Below the pieces are notes generated by a model, which was given only the letters and a program-made list of their open reading frames with translations, was not told where the DNA came from and searched no databases. From Brachycybe producta (lineage: Eukaryota > Arthropoda > Diplopoda > Playtdesmida > Andrognathidae), in assembly GCA_036925085.1 (NCBI GenBank), contig JAUPFP010000010.1, forward strand, positions 3,564,568 through 3,628,567: a DNA stretch of 64,000 nucleotides, in the 5' to 3' direction. Of the stretch, positions 1 through 58,351 are shown piece after piece. The translations under genes were made by a program, and so were the position numbers. The number at the start of each line of letters is the position of its first letter. The stretch's first letter is position 1.

Positions 1-2238
1 AGAAAACGAAAGGTTCCAAATGGTGTAGTAAATGCAGTCTTGTCACGATCATCTGGGTGAACAGGGATTTGATGATATCCAGTGCGGAGATCCATAGTGG
101 ACATACAGTCGGTTCGTCGCGCTGCATGTAGGAGTTCATCAATACGAGGTAGAGGATACCGATCTGCAGTTGTTACGGCATTCAGCTGACGATAATCAAC
201 ACATAGTCATATACCTCCATCTTTCTTGGTGACAATTACTAAAGGTGCTGCCCAGGGGCTTTCACAGGCTTCAATGATGCCATCTTTCAGCATGTTGTCA
301 AGGAGTTGTTCAACGGGTTCCTTAAGTTTTGTTGGAATCTTGTAAGGTGATAAGGCGACCGGAAGAGCATCTCCAATGTTAATTCGGTGTTCTGCCATTG
401 TCGTTGGAGGTCCCTGTTCTGCAAAGACTTCCACATGTTGAGTGAGTAAATCATTCATACCTTTGCGTTGCTGGTCATCTAAGGAGATTCCTTCTTCACT
501 TCGAAGTGATAGCTCAACTGTAGAAAAGGAACTATCAGTCATTAGTTCAGTCTTATCAGCAAATGGGTAGAAAATCTTGGGTCGGTCCCGGAAGTTCCAT
601 AATCTGGTTCTTGGGTTGCAGTCAATGTTTGCAGTAGCAATAAAGTCAATGCCAAGGAGTGTCTCCTGATATGGTTTATCGGGAACATAGAGAATCTCAG
701 CAGGAATGACTCGATCCTGTAGCTTGATGTGGATGGTCCCATGAAGTACTGTGGTCTCCATCGGTACACCATCAGCTAATGTCATTGTGGCTATCCTTGA
801 AACAAAAGGACAATTGTGTTCCTGAAGAACTTTGTAAAGAGACTCACTTGCTACACATCTGTTTGCTCCATTGTCGACCATGGCAGTCCCAGTGATGCCA
901 AATACAGTGATGTGGACGTACAAACGTTCAGTAGCGGGAGGAGTAAGGACAGTAACTTCTTCAACCGAAGATAACTGTATGGTTGCAGTTGCAAAACTTG
1001 CAGTGGAGTGTGCAGCAGTAGATGCAGCAGCCTGTGGTGCTCCATGTCCAATAGAGCATGTAGGACAATTTGATTTGACATAACCTGGAGCTCCACATCC
1101 CCAGCAGGTGAGTGGTTTTCGTCCAGGTGTAGTGGTGGAAAGATGGTCGACTGGCACCTTAGGTTCAGGTAAGACTGTGGTATCCTGTGAAGTCCCCTGG
1201 TTCTGCTGTGCAGCTCGACGCTTCCGACATTCTGCGATGACATGCCCAGTACGTTTGCAGTAAGCACAACGTTTTGTCTTTGTATCATCTGGTGAAGAAT
1301 TTGACTTGTTGGAATCATCTCGAGTCCCTGATGATGTCTTTGTAGAAGTGGTGGTTGCCTCAAGGAGATTGGCCTCGATGGTCCGAGCACGGCGGATAAG
1401 TTCATCGTATGTGTGGAAGTCATCCCTTGAAAGCCTTTCCCTAATCCTTCTGTTTAGCCCACCATATAGCATATCTAGTTGATCCGGTTCAGCTGGTTGT
1501 ATTGGGAGCCGGGAAAATAATAGCCGGATCCGTGAAATGAAAATCTCTGTTAATGTTGCTCCATCTTGTATAGTGGCAAATAACTCCCTGTAGACTTTGT
1601 GTGGTGGCATGTTAGGTCCAAATGCAGCTTTGAGAAGTTTCTCTGCCTCTTCCCAGGTGTGAACAGTGCTTTTCTGTCCTTGCCACCAGTTGGCTGCCTC
1701 TCCAGTAAGAAGCATGGTGAGACCAGTAACAGCATTACGGTCAGAGACACCGGTGCAATTGCGGAAAGTATTAACACTATCCAGGAAGGCTTCCACAGAG
1801 CTTCCTTGTGCCCCATCAAAGCGTGATGTGCACTTCGTGAAGTTCCCTTCTCTGTGCTGCATGGGTTGCTGATGCAGACCCATCTGTGCCACTACTCTAG
1901 CAGTAGTCTCATTTGCAATTCTAATTTGCTCTAATAGTGTGTTTAGATGTGTGGTAGAAAGAGTTACAGTACTTGCCCCTTCAGGTTGGCTTTCATCTGG
2001 ATTCATTGTTGCACGTAGGTTGTCACGTCTTGCAGCCCGCTGATCACGAAAAAGTTTTTGAATTTCAGTTGAGTTTTCTTGTGGCTGGTCCGTTGTAACA
2101 CCTCAGTTGACACCAATGAAGATTTTTTTTTTTAGTTCAGCAAGTTCACTCACAAGCACAGTATAAAGATGTTCATAAATGTCCACAAATTAATTATTTA
2201 AGTCAAGTTGCATGGGCCCCACGTTGGGCGCCAAAAGT
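1..2238 (-). mobile_element. Ty3/gypsy-type LTR retrotransposon, partial second copy (internal region)
   Basis: This stretch repeats 5014-7251 at a constant offset of 5013 bp and looks identical by eye. It holds the start of reverse transcriptase (about 1-386), the gag and protease region (about 387-2006), the leader and the primer-binding site (2216-2233). The copy runs off the left edge of the window, so its 3' part is not seen. It shares the LTR at 2239-2684 with the complete copy to its right, which makes a head-to-tail tandem. It carries about one break, the same as its neighbour, and is very young. Confidence 0.9.
387..2006 (-). CDS. Retrotransposon gag and protease region, second copy
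   Basis: This is the duplicate of the gag-protease region of the complete copy, offset by 5013 bp, with the same zinc knuckles and protease-like domain. Its translation appears identical to that of the right-hand copy. Confidence 0.85.
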
Positions 2239-2684
2239 TGTAGCAGTTTTTGTTTAAATTAGAACTTAAACTGTTGCAGAAGTGTAGGTCCCTTCTTGAT
2301 AAAATAAATAATTTTGGACTCTTCAAGTTTGGAGAAGTTTTTGTATAAAATAAAGAAATACACAGACACACACTTAGTTTTCCAACTCAAGAGCAGAGCA
2401 TCAACTCTTTTTATTTTCAGAAAGTTACAAATATATAGTGAAAAGGGTAATAAGGAAAAGGGCAATAAGGAAACCAAATGTGACTACTGAAACAGTAGCT
2501 GCTTGGGGCCTGAAAAGAGAAAAGTCGCATTTTGGGGACAAATATAGAAGGGTCACTGAACTTAACAGAAAAGGGTGACATGTGGTTTTTTAAGAAGGCC
2601 CTAAGTGGGAGGGTTGGGTGAACAGGAAGTAACTTGTGAATATAATCAAAGTAACAAATATATTTATTAATTAGAATTGTTACA
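2239..2684 (-). repeat. LTR shared by the two tandem retrotransposon copies
   Basis: This 446-bp LTR begins TG and ends CA in the element's sense and matches 7252-7697 by eye. It is at once the 3' LTR of the right copy and the 5' LTR of the left copy. A primer-binding site follows it on one side and a polypurine tract precedes it on the other, so both neighbours are internal regions. Confidence 0.92.
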
Positions 2685-2732
2685 ACTTCTCCCCCTCTGG
2701 AGTCCGCAAACGTCTCGTGTGGGCTCCAGGAA

Positions 2733-5400
2733 TTATTTCGTTGCCTTTCGGGGTCGTCCTCGCTTTCGGAGTGGGGCCACGGGTGTGGCTTTACTGTCAG
2801 AGTCAGCAGGGCATCTTGTCAGGTCCATAGCGTGATATTTTCCAAGTACCTCTTCCGGGTTTTTGGGGTTGGCAATCTCGTAGGTGGTTGGCGATATAAC
2901 TCTGATTATTACGTAGGGTCCGTCTCGGCGTGGTGTCAGCTTGTTGGTGACTCCCCCTGCAACAGAGCTAATAATATGAGTACGGACGAAGACTTTGTCT
3001 CCCTCTTTTAATGTTGGAAGGTCCTGTCGGTGTTGATCACTGTATGCTTTTCGTCTGTCTTGTTCCTGAATGGTGGTTTCCTTGGAAGCTTCCAAGGTGT
3101 CTGCCATTTGTTTCAAGTAGGGTGTGATTTGCGGTACAAATGTGGAGTTGTCGAGGATCTGTCGCAGGTCACGAGTGACATCTCCTGGGGCTCGAGGTTC
3201 AGAACCGAAAACCAAGTATGCTGGAGAAAATCCAGTTGCTTGGGTGGTTGCCGTATTCATGGAAAAACGGATGGTAGCAATTTGATTGTCCCAAGTAGTA
3301 TGGTCCGTTCCCACTAGGATTGCAAGCTGAGTTTTGAGATCACGATTCTTTCTCTCCACTGGATTGGCCTCCGGATGATAGGCAGGAGTGAGGGATTGTT
3401 TGAAACCTAGACACTGTGCTGTACACTGCATCACTGCACTTACGAACTGGACTCCATTGTCGCTGATTACCCGACGTGGTGTCCCATAACGGAGGCAAAT
3501 CTCATCAACTAGCAATCGGGCACATGCTTCTGCTGTAGCATGTGGCAAGGAAAAGAGTTCTACCCATCTTGTAGCAACATCTTCAATAATGAAGATCCAC
3601 CTATTACCATTTGGTGTTGTTGGCAGTGGTCCAAACAGGTCTATGGCAATGGTCTCGAATCTTCGTGTTGGCACTGGTGTCATCAGTAATCCACTAGGTT
3701 TCTGATTGGAGGGTTTATACCTTTGACAATCAAGGCAGTTACGAACATACTCGGTGATGTACTTTCGCATTCCTGGCCAATAGAATCGTCGGGCGATACG
3801 TAGGTATGTCCTCTCAGCTCCATAGTGACCTGCAGTTGGAGCATCATGAAACTCTGCAAGGACTTCCTTTTTCATGTCAGCAGAGACTACTAGCTGTGCT
3901 TCCTCTCCATCGGAGTCTGGATGATATCGGTAGAGAACACCATTCATCATGACGTATCCCCGATCAGTCCATCGACTGAGTAGAACCTTGTCATCCTGTT
4001 CAAAAGCATCAATTATTTTTCGTACCTCTGGGTCATGGAGTTGAGAATGGCGAATTTCTGCTGGTGAGTGTGTGAGGAACTCAATTGCTACTTTGGCAAT
4101 GTCTCCTTGATCATTGTGCTGTAGAGGTGGTCGTGATAAGGTGTCTGCAACCACATTGCTGGATCCTGGTGTATATTCAATGGTTAAATTGTAGGCCTGT
4201 ATTTTTAATGCCCAACGGGCAAGTCGTCCCGAAGGTGTTCGTAGTGACATCAACCACTTCAGAGCTTGATGGTCCGTTCCAATACGAACCTCATTGCATT
4301 CGATGTATCCACGAAATTTATCGACAGCCCATACGACAGCTAAGGCTTCTCGCTCTGTTGCTGAATAATTCCGTTCACTTGGGGTGAGTAGCCGGCTGGC
4401 ATACTCAACTGGTCTCTCATCTATTCGATCACCTTGCAGCAGGGCAGCACCAAGGGCATAGGCACTGGCATCAGTTCGTAGCTTATAGGGTAGCTTGTCA
4501 TCTGCCTGACGTAGCACTGGAGCAGTTGTCAGGTGTGTCTTGAGCATTTGAAAAGAACTCTGGTGGTCTGCTCCCCAGGTCCATGGTGTGTGAAGTTTAG
4601 TGAGAGAGCATAGAGGTTTTGCGATACTTGCAAAATTTTCAATAAAACGGCGGTACCAAGAACAAGTTTGCAGGAAAATTTGAACTTCCTTGGGGTTACG
4701 AGGGGCAATCATATCAGTGATGGCTTTTACCTTTTCCGGGTCCACACTGATTCCTTCTTTAGTCAGACGATGTCCAAGGTACTTGACTTCTGGACAAGCA
4801 AAGTGGCACTTCTCTCGGTTCGCTCGTAACTTGAAAAGAGATAGTCGTCTGAAAACGCTATCTAGGTCCTTTAGGTGTTCTTCAAAACTTGGTGAGACGA
4901 TGATGAGGTCATCCAAATAGGCAAAGATAACTATGTTTGGGAGTCCTCGTCGAAATTGGTCCATTAATCTTTGAAAAGTGGCAGGTGCATTTCGAAGTCC
5001 AAATGGCATACGGAGAAAACGAAAGGTTCCAAATGGTGTAGTAAATGCAGTCTTGTCACGATCATCTGGGTGAACAGGGATTTGATGATATCCAGTGCGG
5101 AGATCCATAGTGGACATACAGTCGGTTCGTCGCGCTGCATGTAGGAGTTCATCAATACGAGGTAGAGGATACCGATCTGCAGTTGTTACGGCATTCAGCT
5201 GACGATAATCAACACATAGTCATATACCTCCATCTTTCTTGGTGACAATTACTAAAGGTGCTGCCCAGGGGCTTTCACAGGCTTCAATGATGCCATCTTT
5301 CAGCATGTTGTCAAGGAGTTGTTCAACGGGTTCCTTAAGTTTTGTTGGAATCTTGTAAGGTGATAAGGCGACCGGAAGAGCATCTCCAATGTTAATTCGG
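2733..5400 (-). CDS. Retrotransposon reverse transcriptase, RNase H and integrase region
   Basis: The domains run in Ty3/gypsy order. Reverse transcriptase carries the catalytic FAYLDDL box. RNase H carries the RTDAS signature. Integrase has an HHCC zinc domain (HDAPTAGHYG...CLDCQ) and a DDE core (IDLFGPLP, SDNGVQF). The extreme C-terminus is basic and includes RGRPRK, the pattern of an AT-hook. A C-terminal targeting module is common in integrases of this group, but an AT-hook is not the usual chromodomain, so its role here is an inference. Confidence 0.9.
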
Positions 5401-7019
5401 TGTTCTGCCATTGTCGTTGGAGGTCCCTGTTCTGCAAAGACTTCCACATGTTGAGTGAGTAAATCATTCATACCTTTGCGTTGCTGGTCATCTAAGGAGA
5501 TTCCTTCTTCACTTCGAAGTGATAGCTCAACTGTAGAAAAGGAACTATCAGTCATTAGTTCAGTCTTATCAGCAAATGGGTAGAAAATCTTGGGTCGGTC
5601 CCGGAAGTTCCATAATCTGGTTCTTGGGTTGCAGTCAATGTTTGCAGTAGCAATAAAGTCAATGCCAAGGAGTGTCTCCTGATATGGTTTATCGGGAACA
5701 TAGAGAATCTCAGCAGGAATGACTCGATCCTGTAGCTTGATGTGGATGGTCCCATGAAGTACTGTGGTCTCCATCGGTACACCATCAGCTAATGTCATTG
5801 TGGCTATCCTTGAAACAAAAGGACAATTGTGTTCCTGAAGAACTTTGTAAAGAGACTCACTTGCTACACATCTGTTTGCTCCATTGTCGACCATGGCAGT
5901 CCCAGTGATGCCAAATACAGTGATGTGGACGTACAAACGTTCAGTAGCGGGAGGAGTAAGGACAGTAACTTCTTCAACCGAAGATAACTGTATGGTTGCA
6001 GTTGCAAAACTTGCAGTGGAGTGTGCAGCAGTAGATGCAGCAGCCTGTGGTGCTCCATGTCCAATAGAGCATGTAGGACAATTTGATTTGACATAACCTG
6101 GAGCTCCACATCCCCAGCAGGTGAGTGGTTTTCGTCCAGGTGTAGTGGTGGAAAGATGGTCGACTGGCACCTTAGGTTCAGGTAAGACTGTGGTATCCTG
6201 TGAAGTCCCCTGGTTCTGCTGTGCAGCTCGACGCTTCCGACATTCTGCGATGACATGCCCAGTACGTTTGCAGTAAGCACAACGTTTTGTCTTTGTATCA
6301 TCTGGTGAAGAATTTGACTTGTTGGAATCATCTCGAGTCCCTGATGATGTCTTTGTAGAAGTGGTGGTTGCCTCAAGGAGATTGGCCTCGATGGTCCGAG
6401 CACGGCGGATAAGTTCATCGTATGTGTGGAAGTCATCCCTTGAAAGCCTTTCCCTAATCCTTCTGTTTAGCCCACCATATAGCATATCTAGTTGATCCGG
6501 TTCAGCTGGTTGTATTGGGAGCCGGGAAAATAATAGCCGGATCCGTGAAATGAAAATCTCTGTTAATGTTGCTCCATCTTGTATAGTGGCAAATAACTCC
6601 CTGTAGACTTTGTGTGGTGGCATGTTAGGTCCAAATGCAGCTTTGAGAAGTTTCTCTGCCTCTTCCCAGGTGTGAACAGTGCTTTTCTGTCCTTGCCACC
6701 AGTTGGCTGCCTCTCCAGTAAGAAGCATGGTGAGACCAGTAACAGCATTACGGTCAGAGACACCGGTGCAATTGCGGAAAGTATTAACACTATCCAGGAA
6801 GGCTTCCACAGAGCTTCCTTGTGCCCCATCAAAGCGTGATGTGCACTTCGTGAAGTTCCCTTCTCTGTGCTGCATGGGTTGCTGATGCAGACCCATCTGT
6901 GCCACTACTCTAGCAGTAGTCTCATTTGCAATTCTAATTTGCTCTAATAGTGTGTTTAGATGTGTGGTAGAAAGAGTTACAGTACTTGCCCCTTCAGGTT
7001 GGCTTTCATCTGGATTCAT
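5400..7019 (-). CDS. Retrotransposon gag and protease region
   Basis: This is the first protein region of the complete element. It begins with a Gag segment containing a WWQGQK-type retrotransposon gag motif. Two CCHC-like zinc knuckles follow (CAYCKRTGHVIAEC and CWGCGAPGYVKSNC), and then an aspartic-protease-like domain. The same region is repeated in the left copy. Gag proteins of this class coat element RNA in cytoplasmic particles, and the protease processes the polyprotein. Confidence 0.85.
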
Positions 7020-7228
7020 TGTTGCACGTAGGTTGTCACGTCTTGCAGCCCGCTGATCACGAAAAAGTTTTTGAATTTCAGTTGAGTTTTCTTGTGGCTG
7101 GTCCGTTGTAACACCTCAGTTGACACCAATGAAGATTTTTTTTTTTAGTTCAGCAAGTTCACTCACAAGCACAGTATAAAGATGTTCATAAATGTCCACA
7201 AATTAATTATTTAAGTCAAGTTGCATGG

Positions 7229-14412: not shown

Positions 14413-17400
14413 TCACAAACGCTCGTTGATAATTACGACGGTCGTTTTCTTGTACCGATCGGTCCTTACGATATACGTGATAAGGATGGCGAGTGCGACG
14501 AGGGTTAGGCCGAGAGCGTTTATCACTTTTCCTTCCGTGGTACCAGCTGCATAGTGAGGCCTGAAGTATATAGCACAACAAATAATATTTTATAAGATGC
14601 AATTTTAAAATATGCAAATACTAGTAAGAAAAAAAAATGGTAATCTAACTCTGGATGTTTCACAAGAAACTAAAGTGGCTGAATAGGTATCTATTTTGTT
14701 TTCGCCACTCCAGATGGCGCATCTGCTTGGTTCTTATGTTCTATGGAAAGGGACAGTTCCTTCCAGTCGCGTTCTATAGGAGGTCTCTTCGATATCCCTC
14801 CCGCGGTTTTGAAAAAAATTGTATTTTTCAAGCGAACTTTTTTTAGGAGAAACATTCTAAAAAAATTCAAAGTGTTTTAGAAACTGGAATACTTGGTGAT
14901 AATGCTAAAAGTTTTTTTCATTATGAAATCTTTTAAAATAAACTTTTTACAAGTTTGAAAAAGGCGAAAATAGTTTTTCATCAAATGTCAATGGGGGAAA
15001 AAAACTCTAAAAACGGTTCATTTTCAAACTGAACCATAAAATGTTTAGTTTTTAAGATACCGCGCAGTGAGAAAACTTTTAGCATAAATATTTTACCATT
15101 CTAGTTTTTAAAATAATCTGACTTTTTTTTTCATAATATTTTTTTTAAAAAGAAAAAAACGTTCACTTGACGTTATTACGTCCAATTTTTTTTTTACAAA
15201 AACGTTTATGGAGAATAGCATAAGCCACAGCAGTTGGCACCAACCGGGCTGACAAAAAACAAAATGAATATCTATAAAGCGGGATATAGACACTTGCCCT
15301 AAAGGATCATTTGCCCTCTCTTTTTTCGTACGATTTACTGTCTTTCAGTAGAGTATGTTAAACGGGTTCTGTGCACCTAGGCGCGCAAAAAACCTCAAAT
15401 GACTTATATTTAGTCTATTGATTAGGGCAAACGTCCCTCTAGGACAAACGGTTTTTGGGCAAATGTCCCTCTAGGGAAAACGATTTTAGGGCCAATGTCC
15501 CCTTTAGGGAAAATGGTTTTAAGGCAAATGTCCCCTTTAGGGCAAACGGTTTCAGGGCAAATGTTCCTCTAGGGCAAACGGTTTCAGGGCAAATGTTCCT
15601 TCTAGGGCAAACGATTTCAGGGCAAATGTTCCTTTAGGGCAAACGATTTCAGGGCAAATGTTCCTTTAGGGCAAACGATTTCAGGGCAAATGTTCCTTTA
15701 GGGCAAACGATTTCAGGGCAAATGTTCCTTTAGGGCAAACGATTTCAGGGCAAATGTTCCTTTAGGGCAAACGATTTCAGGGCAAATGTTCCTTTAGGGC
15801 AAACGATTTCAGGGCAAATGTTCCTTTAGGGCAAATGGTTCTAGGGCAAGTGTCTTTAGGGAAAATGTCATACACACCTATAAAGCCACCCTTAAACTAA
15901 ATAAAATCTATAGAAAACTTCATACGTGAGTGATGGAACCAAAAATATATTGTAATATTTCGTGTTATCCGTTTTAAAAATCCGGTTTTTCTCTTCCAAA
16001 CCTTGACTTACAGTAAATTCTAAAACATTTTAGTTATTTCCCACAATTGCTTTCATAACGCACAGCAACCCCATAGTTTTTATTAACGTTTAGACATGTT
16101 AACAGCCCACAAAGAAACGCCTTTTTTATATTCCCTTATCGCTTACCCCAGTTGGAAAATAGCTTTCTCGGTAAGACCGGTAAGGCAAGTGGCAATCCCC
16201 AGAAGGAAGGTTGCTAGTCCAAAGTGAACGTGAATCGGAAGGAGAGAAGCACGAAAACGAGCTGTCGACTGCTCACAACAAAGAAGAACGAGAAAACTGA
16301 AGAAACCGAAAACAAACTAAAACAAAAGGAAAAACAAAACAAAACATAAAAATTTACAAAATACTTTAAGACATTATATTATTGTTTCTTACCTGAAGCG
16401 AAAAAAGACCAAGTGTCGCAAGTCCCATCCAACTGTGGAGACTATAGAGATCCGGAATGGGAACCGGGTTCAATCTGTGGAAATCGAAGACTGCAACGAC
16501 GGCGATCGCTGCTGCGGGCATCACCAGCAGGTGAAGGATCGTGTGCACCAACTTGTTATAGATCTTACGACAACAACGAAACCCTCTGTAAACCAAAATA
16601 GCTAAGGAACAAAACAACAAGAGTTATATAATGTAACGGAAAGAAGGAACCCTCCATTTCTAATAGTGTGATGTCGAGACCTTGTCCGAGAAGAAAGACG
16701 AATCCTATGACCATGAGCAAAGGGTGAAGGTTGAACTCCTTTGCGATGTCTTCTTGCCAGGCAACACCCTGTCTGTAGTAAAACACCCAAACGATGACAA
16801 GACCCAGTGCACCAAATAGCAACACCTGAGCGAGTAGCATCAGGAATCCGAAGCCAAACTGCGATCCCGTGCTCCAGGAATCGCCTTCTAACGACGAAGA
16901 CCTGCAAAATCGAAGGGAACGGACTATTTTATCGTCTTATCCAAATTTCATGTTAAGAGGCTACACATCACAAAATTATTTCAAACAATCTCCGCAAAGA
17001 GCGCTAGCATCGTTTTTCTATTGAGCACATAGACCCAATGTTAAAGGAAAAATGTTAATTTTTAATATACACAGTCGCGACGGCAATATGTTTATTTTTT
17101 TATATTTAAAGTTGTCCAATTTTGATGGCGCAAAGAGCAATGTGTACCTTAAAAATATACTGATCGAGTGATAGAATGACAAAAAATTGGTAAGTGCGGT
17201 TATATGTTTAAAAACTATTTCAAAATCGCGAATTTCTAACTCTTATTGTTAAACTCCATTGAGTACGCGCTCGTAAAAAATACCTAAAAATAATTTTAAC
17301 AAGCCACAATTAAACCACATTGGCGCACGTGTCACTGGCTTTTTAAAAATTTTACGTATTTTCATGAGCATTAATTAATGGATGTTTTTTTTTTTCATAT

Positions 17401-41600: not shown

Positions 41601-44600
41601 TTAACAAGAAAAAATATTCCGGTCCCTTCAATTCCGTGTTAAACTGTTTCCACTTTACTTTTGTCTGATCGATCGTTTTTCGTTTTCATTTCAAAGAAAC
41701 TGGCTGGCGTTGTCCTGGTTGTCAGAACGTGACGAGCAAAGTGCCTCACAGTTACTACTGCTTCTGCGGGAAGTTACGTGATCCGGAGTGGAATCGATAC
41801 GACACTCCACATGGCTGTGGCGAACAATGCGTCAAAAGCAGAGCTCCAAACACCAAGTGTATTCACCCTTGCAACCTTTTGTGTCACCCGGGGCCGTGTC
41901 CACCCTGTGGAACGTACGTGCCTCGCACCTGTTTCTGTCAAAAGACTTCGCAGGTAATTATCGGTACAATTAGAGTTCTTTTTACGAAAAAATGTCAGCG
42001 TTGGGAAGTAATTTGCCAAAAGAGGGATATTGAGGACATAAGAGGGATATAGAGGAACATTGCGTCTGTGGAGTGGTGCAGCAAGTGCACGCTCTGGAGT
42101 GTCTGGGCCAGTGGTCTCCAAAGTGGGTGCGGGAAGATGGGCCACAGGGGTGCGCGAGATCCGTAATTAATTGATATTAATCCAATTTTACTGCTAATTG
42201 TGCGAGTCATTTACGAGAAAAACAGCAAAGAAAAAAAAACTTGCGAGTGCAGTGGATTTTCCGTGGACATCTATGTTAAAATCTCGTCTGTCTCAGAGAG
42301 TGCGCTTAAAAAGAAAATGGCGGTTGTCATTTATTTTGCGGTGTGTGGTACGTTTTTTTTAGTACGAGTAAGTAGGGGTGTGCGACCAAAAAAGTTTTTG
42401 CTAACTGCACTATTTTTCGCCTGGAGAAATCGTGCTACGCCTAGCAATACTCACGGCCAGGGACGCTCGGACTAAATATCGCTTTTTTTCCAATAATTTA
42501 TCCTCGTGAAAATACGCTCGCACGTTAATATTCAACGGAAGTATAGTAGCATAGGGTTTTTTTTATGGAGGTGGAGGTGTTTTCTCGAATGCAAATCCTA
42601 AAAGATTCTCGAATCCGTTGAATCTCTCGAATCCTTCATGTAACAATCCTATATTATTCACTAAGAAGATACAACTAAAATGAAATAATATTAAATATTA
42701 AATTATTAATAATTTTTAATAATAATTTTTTAACAGTTTTTTTAAGGTTAGGATTCGAAAGATTCGACTTTTCGAATCTCGAATATTTTTCAAAATTCGA
42801 GGATTCGAAATTTCGAATGTCCCATTCCTAATTTTTTTGAAGCTCGTAATACGTAAAAGGTTTTCCTTTTATTCAACTGCAGCGAGCAAAAACTTTTTTT
42901 TATAAATTTGATAAGTCCTCTGTTACAAAGCGAGATAAAAATATCAGTTTTTTTAATAATATAATATTAAAAATATATATCAAAATACCAAGTTTGGCTT
43001 TTGAAAGGTAGGTAAATGCCCGCGTTGCCAGTGTCTGCGGGCGCTTACGCTCACAGCAGACTAGTATGACAGAGCCCACCCTTTGAGAGTTTCGAAATCA
43101 CTGATTTAGTGCGTACATGTAATAATTTATTACATGTATGTACTAATAAGGAGGTTTGGTTTAGTTTGCTTTTTGAAACAACTCACGGCACACCCTTCGC
43201 GAATCGCTGATCTACACTGGAAAATATTCTAAATTGGTTTCCCCAAAAAGATGATTTTCTTTTTCTCGTTTATGTAACCTAAAAGCAAGTTCGCTGTGGT
43301 CAAGCAAATTCCAATTCTTGTGGCGAGACGTGTAACAAAATGCTTAATTGCGGGAAACACAAGTGCAGTGATGTTTGCCACTTAGGAGAATGTCAGCCTT
43401 GTGATAAAAGAATCAGTCAGAGTGAGTTTTATTTGCACGCAAGGAGGAGCTCGACTGTTGACTTAAATTAAAACGGATTTCTCTTACAGAATGCCACTGC
43501 GGCCTCGAGGTGCGAGAGGTTGCCTGTGACTACGACGTCGACGAAGACAGTGGTTTCTCTTGCGGTGGGGTTTGCAATCGATCGCTCGAATGTGGAAACC
43601 ACGTTTGCGGATTACCGTGTCACTCGGGAAAGTGTAAAACGTGTGAACGTAGTGCAGAAGCGATGACTCATTGCCCTTGCGGAAAGACACCGTTATCGGA
43701 GTTACTGACTGGCGGTCAAGTGCGTAAGGAATGCACAGACCCTATACCAACGTGCAGCAACGTCTGCGGTAAACTGCTATCGTGCGGTCCAGAAGGTATA
43801 AACCCATTTTACGAGTGTTTTTACACGAGTTACAAAAGGATTTCAAGAAATATTTACGACTGGAAGAGTTCAGAATATTTTCACGATTATATCAGCCGTA
43901 TCAATAAAGAAATAATTACTTTTGTAAATTTTCACAACTTTTGAGGGTCAAAAACGAGTTAATTTTTTTAAGAAATTTACCATGAAAATTATTCTATACA
44001 TTTTCTAGTTTTAAATAAACTTTTGATTTTCTTTTAAAATGTTTTATGAATAGGTGATTTTTTAACTTTAATTATTTTAATTTTCAATAAGGAGAAATTG
44101 AAAGTGTTTAAGGTTGGTTATTCATGAAAAGAGCTAGCAAGAGCAAACATTTGCAAGTTTGCTCGTGTTCCCTTGAAATGCTCTCCTTGCGGCCATAACG
44201 GAGCGAATATGTTCTTGTTCGCAGCACTTGATTCGCACTGCACTACAGGCATTTCAACAATACAATACTGTGCGTCCACACTAAACGAGCACGAACAAGT
44301 ATTTTCTTTGATGTACCGCCATTCACCCGATCTTTTTTCTGAAGACGAGCGAGCGAATGTTTGCGCGCTCGCGAACCGGTACTCAACGGACGATCATTGA
44401 GTGATTATTTTAAAGATATCAACATGAAATAAGTGATTTGAGCTACCATTCTCCAGATTCTCGTTTGCACGTAAAAGACGGAATAGGCAGCATTCGAGGC
44501 GTTTGCGCTTTAAAACCACCTTAAACGTAGCTTAAAAATTATGTTCTTGTCATTTCTGCACCATAGACGTGATTTACCTGAATTATTAATGGTTAAATCT

Positions 44601-47600
44601 TTGTTTTCGCTTTTGATACTTCCTCAGCTAATCGCCACCAGTGTCCTTCTACTTGCCATTTGGGACCATGCGTGCCTTGTGCCTTGACTTCCAGTGTCGT
44701 GTGTCGTTGTAAGTATCTCAATAAGAAGGTGCGATGCGTCGAACTGACAGAGAGTAGGCTGCTACTCTGCGATAAGAAATGCAACGTTAAGAAAACTTGC
44801 GGCCGTCATAAGTGTTTGCAGACGTGTTGTGTCGACTCTGTTCACGTCTGCAACATGGTCTGTGGCCGCAGACTCAAGTGTGGTCTTCACACGTGCGACG
44901 AACCTTGCCACCAGGGAAACTGTCCTACATGCTGGCGCGCCGGTCAGTTTACTGGTTCCTCTTATTTAAACGTACAGTTTAAAGTTTTAATTTTAATCGA
45001 GGGTCTTTTATCGAGTTTAGGTTTCGATGAATTGACTTGCCACTGTGGAGCCGCAATCACGTATCCACCGATTCCGTGTGGGATGAAACCGCCAGAATGC
45101 AATAAGACGTGTACTAGGCGTCATCCGTGCGAACATCCCGTCCGTCACAACTGCCACAGTGGAACTCAGTGTCCACCTTGCACTTTCCTAATGGAGAAGT
45201 GGTGCTATGGAAAACATGAGGTTTTTTTTTTAAATAATAATTATTATTAACAACTTTTATGCAAATAAAAATTAAAAAATGTACAAATTGTTTTTTGCAA
45301 ATTAAAATTACATATTATATGTAGGACAATTAGCTAAATGTCTGAAGCAATTCACAAGTCACAATCTTTAGAAGCAATAAGAAGAAGAAAAAAATGCAAA
45401 ATCGAAACGATTATGACCAACAAAATATTTTAAGATGGTTTATAAACAGCCGATTGTCGAACTCTGATTTACAATTCTTCGATTCAAGAAATTTAAAGTG
45501 TGTTTTGCCTGGGATCCACATCAAGCTGACAAAAGTGCAACAGGAGTTTGAGACAAAAACACAAAAAAAAAAAATGCCAGAAAAAAAGCAGATTTTGAAA
45601 ACAAAAACAAAATTGAAACAACTGTCAGCAGTGCTCAAAACAAAAACACAACAAATTTGTGACACAACACAAACAAATTGGGTTTTGTTTTTGTTTTTAT
45701 AGCTGTCCTATATAAACTATGCAACTGTGTTCTGTTGTTGTTTTAATAATAACTGTCCGCACTGCACAGACAGTTGAAAGAATGTTGCGTTGTACCACGA
45801 GACAAAACAAAAACCTTTTAATGTTTGCCGGCTGGACCGAGACACATTGGAATAGTTTATGAAATTGCAGATAAAACAACAAAAACAAAATCCAAATGTT
45901 GCAGAAATCTTTTAGACTTGTTGCCAGTTTGTCGGGAAACACTCGAGTTTCTGTTTTGTCAGCTTGATGTGTATTGGCCTTAACTTCCATTAAGATACTA
46001 GAATTGTAGCCGCATTCACTTAATAGAATATTTTCATGTTGATAAAAGTTTTTAATTAAATAAATATTGTATGTTTAAAGTCTACCTATCCATCACCGTG
46101 CCGCCTACCAACAGGCTTTACCCATCTGCTTATCCATTCTAAGCATTTGGCATAACACAAAGTAAAAATAATAGGGAGCAACTGAAGGGGGGGGGGGTTC
46201 TTAACCGGAGGTATCCATACCTCTTAGGGGGTTTAAAAAAAGGTGTTAAGTTTAGAATATACTGTAAACTATCACCGATATCAATAGAGATTGAGACGGC
46301 AAGGCCGATGAAATGATGTCTTTGACACCTTTTGAAGTCATACTGATGGATACTTATTTGGCATTCTATTTGGGGGGGGGGGTGGTCTGTAATCGTAAAA
46401 ATGTTAAGAAACCCTTGTTTTAATTTATGTTTCTGTTTTAAATCAAACACTAAAAAATTAACATTTTGTTAAAATGCGCATCTATGACTTTTTTTGACGG
46501 GAGGCTGCCCTGGATTCGGCTACTTGTCTAGTTTCTAAAACACATTAAAAGTTTCTCTTCATTTTGCACCTGAAAGACAGAATAATAACCAAGAGTTGAC
46601 AAGGCGTTTACACGGTAAAATCATCTTAAAGAAATAAGTGAAATTATCCGACTTTATGTAAATTTGAAAAGATTATGAAAAATTTGTGCATTTTTTTTAT
46701 AAATTTTGGATTAAACTTGATTATCGTGATGCTGATGCCTTTTCAGTTAGTATTGATATCGAGCGCTATCATTAAACCTTCACCTTTGCTACTTTTTTTT
46801 TTTCAATCCAGATAAGGACTTGCATCCCGTGTTTTCAAAACGAGGTTTGCTGTGGCTTACCGTGTAATAAGTTGCTTCCTTGTGGTCTGCACAAGTGCAA
46901 ACTTATTTGTCATCTTGGAACGTGTACGAAAGAAGGTTTCATCTGCACTCAGCCATGCTCTAAGCTCAGGCCACAGTGTGGTCACGTGTGTGGTAGCCAT
47001 TGCCACGAAGGAAAATGTCCGATGACGACTTGCAAAACTCCGGTTCGTGTGTTATATGGATCCTTCTCTGAATCCTAGTGACGCCGTCTTTTTCTTCTTT
47101 TTTTCATGTTCTGCAGGTAAACGTGAAGTGTAAATGTGGACATCGCAAGGCGACAATCACCTGTGCAGAGAACACGAAAATCTATAATCGTCTCGTCGTA
47201 CCTATTTTGGCGGCAAAATTACACTTGGCAGTTGGAGAGTCGGTTAACTTGGGAGAGGCCTCGTCGGAGGCTATCACCGATGCAATGTTGGACCAAATTT
47301 TAATGTTATTTTCGATCTTCTTACCGATTGTCCGTTTGATAATTTTAATTTGTTCACAGTTTGGAGTGTAATAACGGCTGCCTGGCTATAGAAAGAAACC
47401 GAAAGCTGGCGTTGGCCCTGCAGTTACGTAACCCGGATCTGTCGAACAACGTGCAGTGTCCGGTCTACTCCGATTTTCTCAAGGAGCAGGCCAAATCCAA
47501 TCCGGTGTTTGTTGCATCTATTTACGACAAACTGTCGGAACTCGTTATGAGTGCCAAAAAAGTAAACTCGTGCACTATAACATTAGCAACTTTTCGTAAT

Positions 47601-52885: not shown

Positions 52886-53419
52886 TCAAAACCTAGTGCC
52901 AACTTCTTCGTAAGAAACCTCTTTAATGACGCTAGACATACTCGATTGGTCCTCGGTGTTCGCCAAGTGATCATCGATGGCCGTACACGGACGACAGAGG
53001 CAATCGACAGGTGCACGAGTAATGACTTTACGAAACTTAGGGTCACCAGCCTTTGCCTTTGGACAGAAGAGGTTTACGCTCGCTTCACGAACTCCCATCT
53101 CTTGACAGCACATACAAGATCGTTCCGTTTGCCATAGTTTGTAACCAGAAACCTTGCAACAACAACAACAAATATGAACTACAAACACTTGTTTTCGTTA
53201 TAAAATTGTGGGAAGAAAAAAAAACAAACAATGAATTTGTACCTGAACATATGATGTACATCTTCCCTGACATGCAAACGACGGAATAGGTTTCGGAACA
53301 CAACCCGGATACTGCAAAACGTGGATAACCGGTGTGATGTGACATTCGTCTCCCTTGGTTCTCTCGGCTCCGAGAGAAATGGTCAACACCAAAACCAAAC
53401 ACACAACACAATAGACCAT
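52886..53419 (-). CDS. burs: Bursicon alpha subunit (neurohormone)
   Basis: The two coding exons, 53243-53419 and 52886-53152, are separated by a 90-bp intron with GT/AG borders, and give 147 aa. A signal peptide (MVYCVVCLVLVLTISLG) is followed by a cystine-knot domain with 11 cysteines. TPVIHVLQYPGCVPKPIPSF, then SCMCCQE and CLCRPC, match bursicon alpha closely. The intron falls after SYVQ. The subunit dimerises with bursicon beta and is secreted by neurons to activate the receptor rickets (LGR2), which drives cuticle tanning and wing or appendage expansion after moulting. An acceptor-like CAG lies 5 bases before the ATG, so a non-coding first exon upstream is likely. Bursicon beta lies about 3.9 kb upstream on the same strand. 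Confidence 0.96.
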
Positions 53420-53474
53420 TTTACCTGTTTTTTTTTTTTTAAAAAATAATGAAATCAACGTGTAAGAAACCATT

Positions 53475-54165
53475 TTTACGTTAAGAAAAATAAAACGTAC
53501 GTAAGAAACTTCCTGCCATCTTGCTCATTATTATTATTATTGTTATTATTATTATTTGAGATAGTTGCAAATTTTAGAAACAACAAAAAATACGAGTAAC
53601 CAAAATGCAATCTGATGTCAAATGTGTTCTTCAACTAAGACAGATATAAACTCGATAACCAGAGTGACACACACGGAATCTTGTTCACCGTGTTTTTCCT
53701 TCTGAAATAGTGGTAACGATTAACACAACGAGAGTCCAGTACGAACCTCAGCATAATTTCATTAACCGCAGGAAACTAATGAATTTAGTCTCGAGTGTGT
53801 CCTTGTAACTTTCGTTACTTTTAAGAAGGGCTTTATCGCTTTATTTGGACGCAAAAACGTCAAGAAAACTTTTGTTTTAGGAAGCAACTTTACAATAAAA
53901 TTCAAATTTTTTTGCTTTTAAAAAACTAGAATGGGTAGAAGATTATGCTAAAAGTTTATTTTGAAAGATATTTATCATGAAAAAACTTTTAGCAGTATCA
54001 TCAACTATTCTAGTTTCTAAAACACTTGGAATTTTTTGTTATGTTTCTCCTGAAAACATTTTGCTTAAAAACCCTAATTTTCAGAAAACCGCGGGGCCGA
54101 ACTCAACTGTTTCATCACCTGTCCCACCTAAGGTCGCTGCTGCAGTGGTTCATGGTTATGCTCCA
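53475..54165. other. Region between bursicon genes with an M4 fragment
   Basis: A TTA microsatellite lies near 53527-53557. From about 53830 the sequence resembles M4 (ACGCAAAAACGTCAAG and then GAAAGATATTTATCATGAAA). No exon is seen. Confidence 0.4.
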
Positions 54166-54299
54166 TGACTTTTTTTTCTAAAATTGGGTCGCAAAAACGT
54201 CAAGCAAATGTTTTCTCTCTCGAAACATTCCAAAAAAAAAAAATTCAAATTGTTTTCAAAACCAAAACGACACAAGATTATGTTAAAAAAATAAACATT

Positions 54300-54500
54300 T
54301 TGCCTTTCACTAATTTTTTGGAAAAAAATGAGTTTTCTCAGACTTTTTGCAAAAAAAAAAAAAAAAAGACAATTTTCTGAGACTTTTTGAAAAAAAAAAG
54401 ACAATTTTCTGAGACTTTTTGAAAAAAAAAAGACAATTTTCCCAGACTTTTTGAAAAAAAGAATTTTCTGAGACTTTTTGATAAAAAAGAGAATTTTCCC
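54300..54500. repeat. Tandem repeat of about 31 bp
   Basis: About six units combine TTTTCTGAGACTTTTTG with an A-run of variable length. The A-run variation suggests slippage. Confidence 0.75.
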
Positions 54501-54529
54501 AGAATTTTTAACACATCGCAGTTGGAAGA

Positions 54530-54750
54530 GTGGCACGCCTCAAAAAACTACTTTTTTTGGGGGGGGGGGGAAATGAGTTTAAAGTTGCATTTTCTCATTT
54601 TCTATTGTAGGACAGACAAATAAACCGATATTGTGAATCGTAAAAACGGCCTTTGCACTTGAAAAGCTCGGCAAAGTAAGCCACGACGAATCTTTTCTTA
54701 ACTTTAAACTCATTTTCCCCCAAAAGTGTTTTTTTTAGACGTGCCACCCT
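54530..54750. mobile_element. Fold-back element carrying a gene-like fragment
   Basis: GGAAATGAGTTTAAAGTT mirrors AACTTTAAACTCATTTTCC, with GTGGCACGCC-type ends. The loop (54606-54697, minus strand) matches 56650-56740 on the plus strand at roughly four bases in five. Confidence 0.6.
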
Positions 54751-55537
54751 TTCAGACGCGGTGCGACATTTGCAGCGAATCTTGCTTTAAAGATTGCAGA
54801 AGTGATCGCCGCTTTAAACAAAATTTCCCTTAAAACAAATAACGTCAAGAAATTATACCAAAAAAACATTGTTTGTATACAAATATCAGGATATTTCCTG
54901 TTAAACATAAATCAAATTTGCTAGAATTAAAGAGATGATGTAAACAAATGAATTGTTGTTTACCTTGTTAGCAGTACCTAAGTCCAGGGGTCTAATGGAA
55001 ACGAAGAGTTCCAACAAAGTTATAATGAAATCATTTATTCTGACAGCCGAGGATGTTCTGGGCGGAACCGTTCTTTAAGTCGATTACATTTTCCTCGTAT
55101 TTCATTGGTCCACTCAATCAATTCCAATTTTTTTTAAAAAAAAATACAATTACTTTACTACAATTATAGACAAAGACATAACGATTTGAGCAGGCGTATC
55201 ATAAATACCCTCTCTCGCTCTCTGAAACTCTGTCTGAGTATGGATTGCGTCCCGTGGTGAAATCAGTCTTGCGTTGCAATGTCCACGTGTGAAAGCAACA
55301 CCCTCCGTGGTCAAGTGTTATAGTGAATTAACACAATTTCCATGTCGGACGTGTCATTTTAATGGAACTTCTCCACGGGGACTCGTTTTTTGTTGAAGAT
55401 TTTAATTGCCTGCCAATCAATTAAGAAGGTTTTAAAGTATTAACGCCACTCAGAACTTTGATTATAGTGTCCATCGAGAGTAACGTTAAGAGGTAACTTG
55501 AACGTGTTTTAGAAACTAGAAAGGTAACTCAATCAGG

Positions 55538-55962
55538 TAAGGTGGCTGAATTGATATTTATTTTGTTTTTGTCTCCATGGATGGTGCCACTGCAGTGGCC
55601 ATTATGTTCCACAGGAGGTCTCAAGAAAATTTATATTTTTCGAGCCAAAGTTTTTCGGAAGAAACATTACGAAAAAAAAAATCAGAAGTGTTTTAGAAAC
55701 TACAATAGTTGGTGACAATGCTAAACGTTTTTTCACAATGATATGTTTAAAAATAAACTTTTTATGAAAAAAAAAACACACCAAAAAAACGAGTCATTTG
55801 AAAATAATTTTGAATTTTTTCGTAATGTTGCGTCCAAAGTAACGTTTACTTGACTTTTTTGCATTCAAATTTTACAAAATGTCTATGAAGCATCCCATTA
55901 GCCACTGAAGTGGCTCCGTTTGGATTAACAAACGCAGAAGAAATATCTATTCCAACATCTTA
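55538..55962. mobile_element. M4 fold-back element between the bursicon genes
   Basis: TAAGGTGGCTGAATTGATATT at the left mirrors AAATATCTATTCCAACATCTTA at the right. Confidence 0.6.
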
Positions 55963-56529
55963 AGGATGGTTGTCATGGAGATATCTTTCAAAATAACCTT
56001 GTTATGCAAGTATTGAAAAGTTCAGCAAACTATATTTGCTATTAATTTGTGTGAAAAAGGTTTATTTCGAACGATACCAACACGAAAATAATATTAAGTC
56101 GTTCGGCTATCATTCCAGTTTCTAACATCACTTTCGATTTCATTTTTAGTGTTGCTTCCGCAGAATAATCAAGCGTTCAAAAATCAACTGTTCATAACAC
56201 ATCATAACTGACAAGTGAATTTCTTTGATTCTGCATTCTAAGTTCATTTGTGAAGAGCATGCACACAATGTTAGACAATCTTGTTAGTTTGAAATCGTTT
56301 ATTAGTTCGAATATGACAGAACAATAATTCATTAAAAATGTTAAGAAAGACAATAGGAATTAAGGCAATAAAGAAACAAAATCAGTATTAATATCAGTGT
56401 TGGGAAAGTAATTTGCCAAAAGTAATAAATTACATTTTCATGTAATTAAGGTTCTTGAAAATATTAAGTGATGCAAAATTGGAATTCAACAATCACACAG
56501 AGAGCCTCTTTTTTTTCCGACTATGTCGT

Positions 56530-56740
56530 TCAGTCATGCATTTGAAGCCTGAATCTGACGAGCCTGAATCTGACGAATCTGAATCTGACGAAAAAGGAAA
56601 AGCGTTGTACAGAAGCAAATCTGTGATACGCAAACCTAAACGCGAGGAGATTCGTCGTAGCTTACTTTGCCGAGTTTTTCAAGCGCAAAAACCATTTTGA
56701 CTATTCACATTATCGGTTTATTTGGCTCCCCTACAATATA
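56530..56740 (+). pseudogene. Coding-like fragment inside the GTGTTGGGA element
   Basis: The reading is PESDEPESDESESDEKGKAL, and a neighbouring frame continues RRFVVAYFAEFFKRKNHF. The second part matches 54606-54697 in another element. I do not recognise the family. It may be a captured fragment of a host or transposon gene. Confidence 0.4.
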
Positions 56741-56780
56741 TTCAGATAGCAAGACCGTTAGTAATAGATCACATTACTTT

Positions 56781-57120
56781 TAAAAGGTTACATCACAAAA
56801 TTACTTCGAAAAATCTCCGCAAAGAGCGCTAGCATCGTTTTTCTATGGAGCCCATAGACCCAATGTTAAAGAAAAAATGTTAATTTTTAAAATACAGAGT
56901 CGCGGCTGCAATATGTTTATTTTTCATATTTAAAGGTGTCCAATATTAAGTTTTCAAAGTGCAATGTGCACCTTAAATATATGCTGATCGAGTAATAGAA
57001 TGACAAAAAATTCGTAAGTGCGGGTCTATTTTTAAAAACTATTTCAAAATCGCGAATTTCTAACTATTACGTTAAACTCCATTGAGTTTAACGCGAGCCC
57101 AAATAAGGAAAAAAAACATC
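56781..57120 (+). mobile_element. M3 fold-back element, left half
   Basis: It follows TACATCACAAAATTACTTCG through the M3 block order to the centre. It is nested in the GTGTTGGGA element. Confidence 0.7.
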
Positions 57121-57337
57121 CACACTAATTTGTAATAGGACTGTAATTAAATTGTTTTCTTGAAGGAGGGGAATGAGTAACTGTAATTTCTTTTTAAACT
57201 TAGTAATTGTAATTACTTTTTTCACCTGTGTAATTAATAATTATAATATTAATTACTTTTTTCACCTATGTAATTAGTAATTGTAATGAATTACTTTGAA
57301 AAGTAACTTCTCCCAACACTTGGTCGATACAAAAGAC

Positions 57338-58351
57338 TCAATTTTCACTACTACCACATTGAAAACATTTGCACATTGCCGGCTCCTTGAGCTTTATGGC
57401 GAGGTTGCTGAGATCTCCCATCAACGACTGACCCTCTGGATTGTAACACTGTTGCAAGATCACTTCACGCTCGCGAAGATGAGTTTCACGACAACACTGA
57501 CATTCCTGGCGAAGGAAGAATAAAAATCAAGTAATAACAATAACTGTTTAAAACATCAAAGGGGGATATGGGATGCACCTTGAGAAATCCAGAAGACTTG
57601 ACTACGCTAGGTTGTAATTGAGATTGGCATGTTCCTTCACACTTGTTCACGGCAATGTCGCCTTCGCAAGTGCGTACCAACTGTCCGTGCTCGTCGTTAA
57701 CCTCTAAAAAAACCAAAATTTCAATAAAACGTTATTTAATAAATATTTAAGATTGTTGTTCTCGAACTCGATTATTCTGTCTTTCAAAAGAGCCAAATTA
57801 AGAGTAACTAGAAAGTGTTTTGGAAACTAGAAGGGTAACTCAATCACTTAATTAGCGTTTTTGGGGGTTGATATCTTTCAAAATTAACATTTTACAGACA
57901 GAAATCGCCTAATTAAAGTTGGTTCATTTTCAACCTCATAAAAAAGCTTACTTTGAAAGATATCAACACGAAGATAACCTTGAATGATTGAGCTACCCTT
58001 CCAGTTTCTAAAACACGGCAAAGTTTCTCTTTACTTCGTATCTGAAACACAAAATAAGAGTTCTAGAAACCACCTTAAATAATTCACTGATTCTTAATGA
58101 AGAGAAAGACGATACCTTTAGTGATATGAATTGTAGATGGCAAAGTTTCGCACGAACTCTGCCCCGAAACGACCGAACGGGTCGAGATGGAGCAAAAGCA
58201 ACCAGTTAAGCCAAAACTTAACATGATTAATTGCAACCATTTCGCTTTAAATACACAACTTTTTACTGACTAAACAAAAACAACAACAAAAAAATTGTAC
58301 AAATAAACAAATCACCACAAAATGGCACGGCACAATTCAAAAGCTTACCAT
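57338..58351 (-). CDS. pburs: Bursicon beta subunit (partner of bursicon)
   Basis: The four coding exons are 58349-58351, 58116-58269, 57579-57703 and 57338-57505, for 149 aa. The first coding exon contributes only the ATG, which is followed at once by the donor GTAAGC. The next exon continues in frame with a signal peptide (residues about 1-30, SVKSCVFKAKWLQLIMLSFG). The mature cystine-knot part has 11 cysteines: CETLPSTIHITKE, then TCEGDIAVNKCEGTC, QPSV and SGFLKECQCCRE, ending MCKCFQC. These blocks match bursicon beta of insects and crustaceans. The protein pairs with bursicon alpha, and as a homodimer the family is also linked to immune-gene induction. All internal borders are GT/AG with matching phase. 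Repeats occupy its second intron and its 3' flank. Confidence 0.94.
57765..58068. mobile_element. Fold-back element in a bursicon beta intron
   Basis: CTCGATTATTCTGTCTTTCA at the left mirrors CTGAAACACAAAATAAGAG at the right. Inner arms TTGATATCTTTCAAAAT and TTTGAAAGATATCAAC pair. It fills most of the intron 57704-58115. Related pieces lie at 8060-9450, 41460 and 46550. Confidence 0.7.

Follow-up and report, generated by a model that had tools for sequence, protein, structure and literature searches.

Bursicon alpha and beta subunit genes lie head to tail in an arthropod genome, most likely as a trace of an ancient tandem duplication

Introduction

Genes encoding the two subunits of one hormone may be neighbours because they arose side by side, because they were brought together later, or because they are regulated as a unit. 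Which of these accounts best for a pair of genes that we found in an arthropod genome, encoding the two subunits of the cuticle hormone bursicon, bursicon alpha (burs) and bursicon beta (pburs)? In Drosophila the two genes lie on different chromosome arms, whereas here they are 3.9 kb apart. The stretch of DNA analyzed (the window) has a length of 64 kb and comprises bases 3,564,568-3,628,567 of contig C10 (5,935,241 bp) in an assembly of 295.3 Mb and 442 contigs. All coordinates below are window positions unless another contig is named.

Both genes are located on the minus strand, bursicon beta first (58351 to 57338) and bursicon alpha second (53419 to 52886), with the beta ATG beginning at 58351 and the alpha stop codon ending at 52886. 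The distance from the beta stop to the alpha ATG is exactly 3,918 bp, in agreement with the initial annotation, which had placed the two genes head to tail on one strand at 3.9 kb. Its further statement that both gene models are complete and intact also holds, as the frames are open and all four introns are of the GT/AG type. Overall, with a probability of roughly 0.75, we consider the pair to consist of ordinary single-copy burs and pburs genes that are separately transcribed, that encode a heterodimer, and whose linkage stems from an ancient duplication.

The two genes are contiguous in the assembly, since the 64-kb window contains no N and belongs to a contig of 5.9 Mb. An erroneous joining of two bursicon genes by the assembler is therefore highly improbable. 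Repetitive sequence between the genes might in principle cause such an error, but the repeats are short, and a long read would be expected to cross them.

Gene models and subunit identity

The bursicon beta model consists of four coding exons and 149 amino acids. Its first coding exon (58349..58351) contains the ATG only, with the donor GTAAGC directly next to it, while the second (58116..58269) encodes the leader and the start of the mature protein and ends in phase 1. The cystine knot is divided over the third exon (57579..57703; first half, ending in phase 0) and the fourth (57338..57505; second half and stop codon). At the junction of exons 1 and 2, where the acceptors were inspected by eye, the AG before 58269 is the only acceptor that preserves the frame. 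Translation could alternatively start at an in-frame ATG within exon 2, which, as judged by eye, would leave a hydrophobic leader in place. The bursicon alpha model has two coding exons and 147 amino acids. The first (53243..53419) encodes the leader and the first half of the knot and ends in phase 0, and the second (52886..53152) encodes the second half of the knot, the C-terminal tail and the stop codon. Each of the two genes thus has its own ATG and its own hydrophobic leader, the leaders being judged by eye.

The identity of the subunits was assessed against the bursicon sequences of the lobster Homarus americanus as printed in PMC4696782, in which one printed hyphen per sequence was read as a line break and not as a residue (in beta, this hyphen lies between cysteines 8 and 9). 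Both mature proteins contain 11 cysteines, spaced by 13, 9, 3, 17, 1, 0, 13, 20, 1 and 2 residues in alpha and by 23, 8, 3, 17, 1, 0, 14, 24, 1 and 2 residues in beta, and these spacings are the same as in the corresponding lobster subunits. Identity to the lobster reached 67% for alpha (78/117) and 64% for beta (69/107) with BLASTP, and 70% and 61%, respectively, with MAFFT. Each protein was much closer to the corresponding lobster subunit than to the other one, with expectation (E) values of 2e-58 for alpha against lobster alpha and 2e-6 against lobster beta, and of 2e-52 for beta against lobster beta and 1e-5 against lobster alpha. The local alignment scores of 437 (alpha) and 386 (beta) clearly exceeded the maxima of 57 and 55 obtained with 500 shuffles each. 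Besides, alpha passed the Pfam DAN model (PF03045) with 29.6 bits at a cut-off of 22 and matched two PDB sequences of gremlin-2 with E values of about 2.6e-4. Compared with the Drosophila subunit sequences, identity was approximately 52% for both alpha and beta. Judged by these sequence comparisons, the two genes are ordinary orthologues of bursicon alpha and bursicon beta.

Copy number and relatives in the genome

A six-frame search of the assembly with the alpha protein yielded two exon matches at the locus; the one further match in the assembly was weak (E 0.024, 30% identity). The same search with an early, 140-residue version of beta yielded three exon matches at the locus and, likewise, one weak match elsewhere (E 0.25). 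At the sensitivity of these searches, alpha and beta are each present in the assembly as a single copy.

A DAN-domain match of 133.9 bits was observed in an open frame of 333 amino acids on another contig (C2:5293564-5293893, minus strand). This frame probably belongs to a gremlin/NBL1-like antagonist of bone morphogenetic proteins (BMPs), a distant relative of bursicon and not a second bursicon gene. Since the weak alpha match (E 0.024) lies inside this frame, which was also found by the Pfam model, it probably represents this BMP-antagonist-like gene.

As a control within the genome, we also looked for the GPA2/GPB5 pair. The Pfam model Cys_knot gave no match in the assembly, and Hormone_6 gave one weak match with stop codons (E 0.38, below the cut-off). 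In the same kind of genome search, the DAN model missed the alpha gene, although the spliced alpha protein passes the cut-off of that model. Exon-wise searching of a genome can thus miss spliced genes, and the negative result for GPA2/GPB5 is therefore uninformative on the absence of these genes.

Age and origin of the pair

The alpha and beta proteins are related to each other, with an identity of 29% over 76 columns, a pairwise E value of 1.2e-6, and an alignment score of 84 at a shuffle maximum of 52. The two genes have no intron position in common. In alpha the intron comes after Q59; the residue aligned with it in beta precedes the beta intron, located after K94, by approximately 11 residues. 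Considering this low identity and the lack of a common intron position, the duplication that separated the two subunits must be ancient; a recent tandem duplication is ruled out on the same grounds. We propose that the head-to-tail linkage has most likely survived from the ancient tandem duplication by which both subunits arose. Such an ancestral origin of the linkage is plausible and agrees with PMC4079206, which describes, in the passages concerned, the bursicon pair as the product of its own, separate duplication in early bilaterians.

Several observations weigh against the combined reading given in the Introduction. The early 140-residue version of beta matched no Pfam family and no PDB chain at 1e-3, and the corrected beta protein found no match in NCBIfam, whose families are bacterial and archaeal. 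Because these searches gave no match, the name of beta rests on the comparison with the lobster and Drosophila sequences. The gene structure, with zero shared intron positions, gives a tandem origin no support, and the linkage could also be secondary. Neither AATAAA nor ATTAAA is present between 52300 and the alpha stop codon (52886), and the motif TATA[AT]A is absent from the 600 bp preceding each ATG. These motif counts decide nothing, however, because the DNA is AT-rich.

A secondary linkage would imply that a rearrangement in this lineage united, or reunited, two genes that had been apart in the ancestor. Both the differing intron positions and the richness of the region in mobile repeats would fit such a history. 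On the other hand, a chance meeting of two specific genes is improbable: in an assembly of this size, the probability that a gene named beforehand lies at most 5.5 kb from another is approximately 3.7e-5, a value to be read with the reservation that the present pair was picked after it had been seen. Closeness of the subunit genes has also been reported in certain insects (PMC4079206, PMC3510462, in the passages that treat it). We thus regard a secondary linkage as unlikely and retain the ancient tandem duplication as the preferred origin.

The spacer between the genes

The intergenic spacer (53420..57337) is AT-rich and contains dispersed repeats. Genome searches with spacer sequence, in each of which 40 candidates were scored, revealed at least three of them. 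The repeats at about 54523-54772, at 55538-55770 and at 56780-57122 each recurred in almost every one of the 39 further candidates scored in its search, and the first-look lists for the whole queries comprised 4196, 4177 and 2176 candidates, respectively. A weaker dispersed repeat was found by genome search at 55797-56000. Tandem repeats (54358-54509 and 57208-57287) and inverted repeats are also present. The initial annotation had described the spacer as containing nothing but repeats; the repeats themselves are confirmed, while elsewhere in the spacer matches were few or absent among the 40 candidates that each search scored, so that the description is only partly borne out.

None of the five open reading frames of at least 70 amino acids that lie wholly inside the spacer had a Pfam match at an E value of 0.01. 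This gave no indication of a third gene between beta and alpha, although a gene lacking a Pfam domain or consisting of very short exons would escape such a search. After beta, the spacer contains eight AATAAA signals, the first at 56921, and two ATTAAA signals.

Function and regulation

The bursicon subunits are reported to pair and to activate the receptor rickets/DLGR2, leading to tanning of the cuticle (PMC3314635, in the part that deals with this pathway). In the present genome, alpha and beta would each have their own minus-strand transcript, and both proteins would be secreted and would then pair as an alpha-beta cystine-knot heterodimer. This heterodimer would be expected to activate a type-B LGR receptor of the rickets/DLGR2 type, upon which the new cuticle would be tanned and hardened.

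A different possibility is that the two genes form a co-regulated or bicistronic unit, in which the amounts of the subunits are kept in balance by an enhancer common to both genes or by read-through of beta transcription into alpha. The genes are on the same strand, 3.9 kb apart, with no Pfam-detectable gene between them, and the honey bee is reported to have one gene for both subunits (PMC3510462, in a passage citing earlier work). The missing AATAAA/ATTAAA signals from the alpha stop codon to 52300 and the missing TATA box upstream of alpha point weakly in the same direction. However, AATAAA signals do occur in the spacer after beta, from 56921 onward, although they are expected by chance in AT-rich DNA, and each gene has its own start codon and, by eye, its own leader. 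Furthermore, some Drosophila neurons express BURS without PBURS (PMC2942807), and Manduca has cells labelled for pburs only (PMC2990333); the passages on these single-subunit cells indicate that burs and pburs are not always co-expressed. Taking both sides together, a co-regulated or bicistronic unit appears improbable, and separate transcription of two ordinary genes remains the preferred reading.

The heterodimer does not require close linkage of its genes, which lie apart in Drosophila. Shared regulation of the linked pair in this species is a guess. A bolder version holds that beta and alpha have been a conserved co-regulated unit since the ancestral bilaterian, perhaps with occasional read-through, which balances the heterodimer against homodimers. 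We give this idea little credence; if it were true, the single gene of the honey bee would be the extreme of the same arrangement.

Other features of the window and the assembly

Frames of a Ty3-type retrotransposon were observed in the window at 207-7115 (minus strand). They include a gag frame of 631 amino acids that occurs twice, the copies being 5,013 bp apart, with protease-like matches below the cut-off. Between these copies lies a frame of 828 amino acids with reverse transcriptase, RNaseH and integrase domains, directly after the gag copy at 5220-7115 and in the same frame past its stop codon. This layout suggests tandemly joined copies of the element. A tandem array with a 32-bp unit (13.8 copies, 92% matches) is present at 15424-15865. 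On the plus strand, open reading frames with NF-X1 type zinc fingers extend over 43462-45250, with matches above the cut-off in 44597-45250 and below it in 43462-43944. These are perhaps exons of an NFX1/ZNFX1-like gene, at about 8 kb from bursicon alpha.

Contig C442 (15,359 bp) is an arthropod-type mitochondrial genome. Its protein genes were named by eye from the translations, except for cox1, which had a Pfam match, and ARAGORN reported 25 tRNAs on it, including some doubtful doubles. The tRNAs A-R-N-S-E follow nad3 and K-D follow cox2; nad4L, nad4 and nad5 are located on the cox1 strand, nad2 comes after cob, and nad1 is on the other strand. This arrangement differs from the arthropod mitochondrial ground plan. 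A trnL(UUR) between cox1 and cox2 is a pancrustacean mark; in this contig cox2 directly follows cox1 with no tRNA between them, and the trnL with anticodon TAA lies elsewhere. The animal may accordingly be a chelicerate or a myriapod and not a pancrustacean, but this is a weak indication because the mitochondrial genome is rearranged. The gene order also differs from that of Strigamia maritima as given in the relevant passage of PMC4368715. Copies resembling cox1 were found in two nuclear contigs as well (C1:12697416-12698753 and C17:4027703-4029047) and are either nuclear mitochondrial insertions or assembly joins. The copy on C1 scores nearly as well as the mitochondrial gene itself, but contains an internal TAA.

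Comparison with known systems

The idea of a linkage between the bursicon subunit genes is not new. The genes appear close together in certain insects (PMC4079206, citing Mendive et al. 2005 and Van Loy et al. 2008), and the honey bee is described as having one bursicon gene whose product contains two knot domains (PMC3510462, citing Mendive et al. 2005). The passages considered in PMC4888303, PMC11521371, PMC4244043, PMC8286064 and PMC3896475 have no bearing on this linkage. Because these sources, in the passages on gene organization, report close or single-gene bursicon, the present pair adds another example to an arrangement that is already known. The proximity of alpha and beta is like that in the insects of PMC4079206, whose passages on this subject do not give species, order, strand or distance. 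As in the honey bee according to PMC3510462, both knots are encoded at one place; there they form part of one gene, while here they belong to two genes with a 3.9-kb spacer between them.

The thyrostimulin genes GPA2 and GPB5 offer a parallel, as they likewise encode the subunits of a heterodimeric cystine-knot hormone and are neighbours in most species (PMC4079206, PMC8522476, PMC4200219). In the wording of PMC4079206, GPHalpha2 and GPHbeta5 are almost always close together, but the same source attributes the bursicon pair and this pair to separate duplications. In the beetle Oryctes, two bursicon-type genes also lie approximately 4 kb apart on one contig, as they do here, although the passage in PMC6585902 describes two copies of alpha (bursicon A), in contrast to the alpha and beta of the present locus.

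The pair adds one arthropod genome, possibly outside the insects and crustaceans, to those with neighbouring bursicon subunits, which would widen the range of this arrangement modestly and leaves the knowledge of the hormone itself unchanged. Neighbouring subunits fit the published view of an origin by duplication, and their linkage here suggests that the separate locations of burs and pburs in Drosophila are derived.

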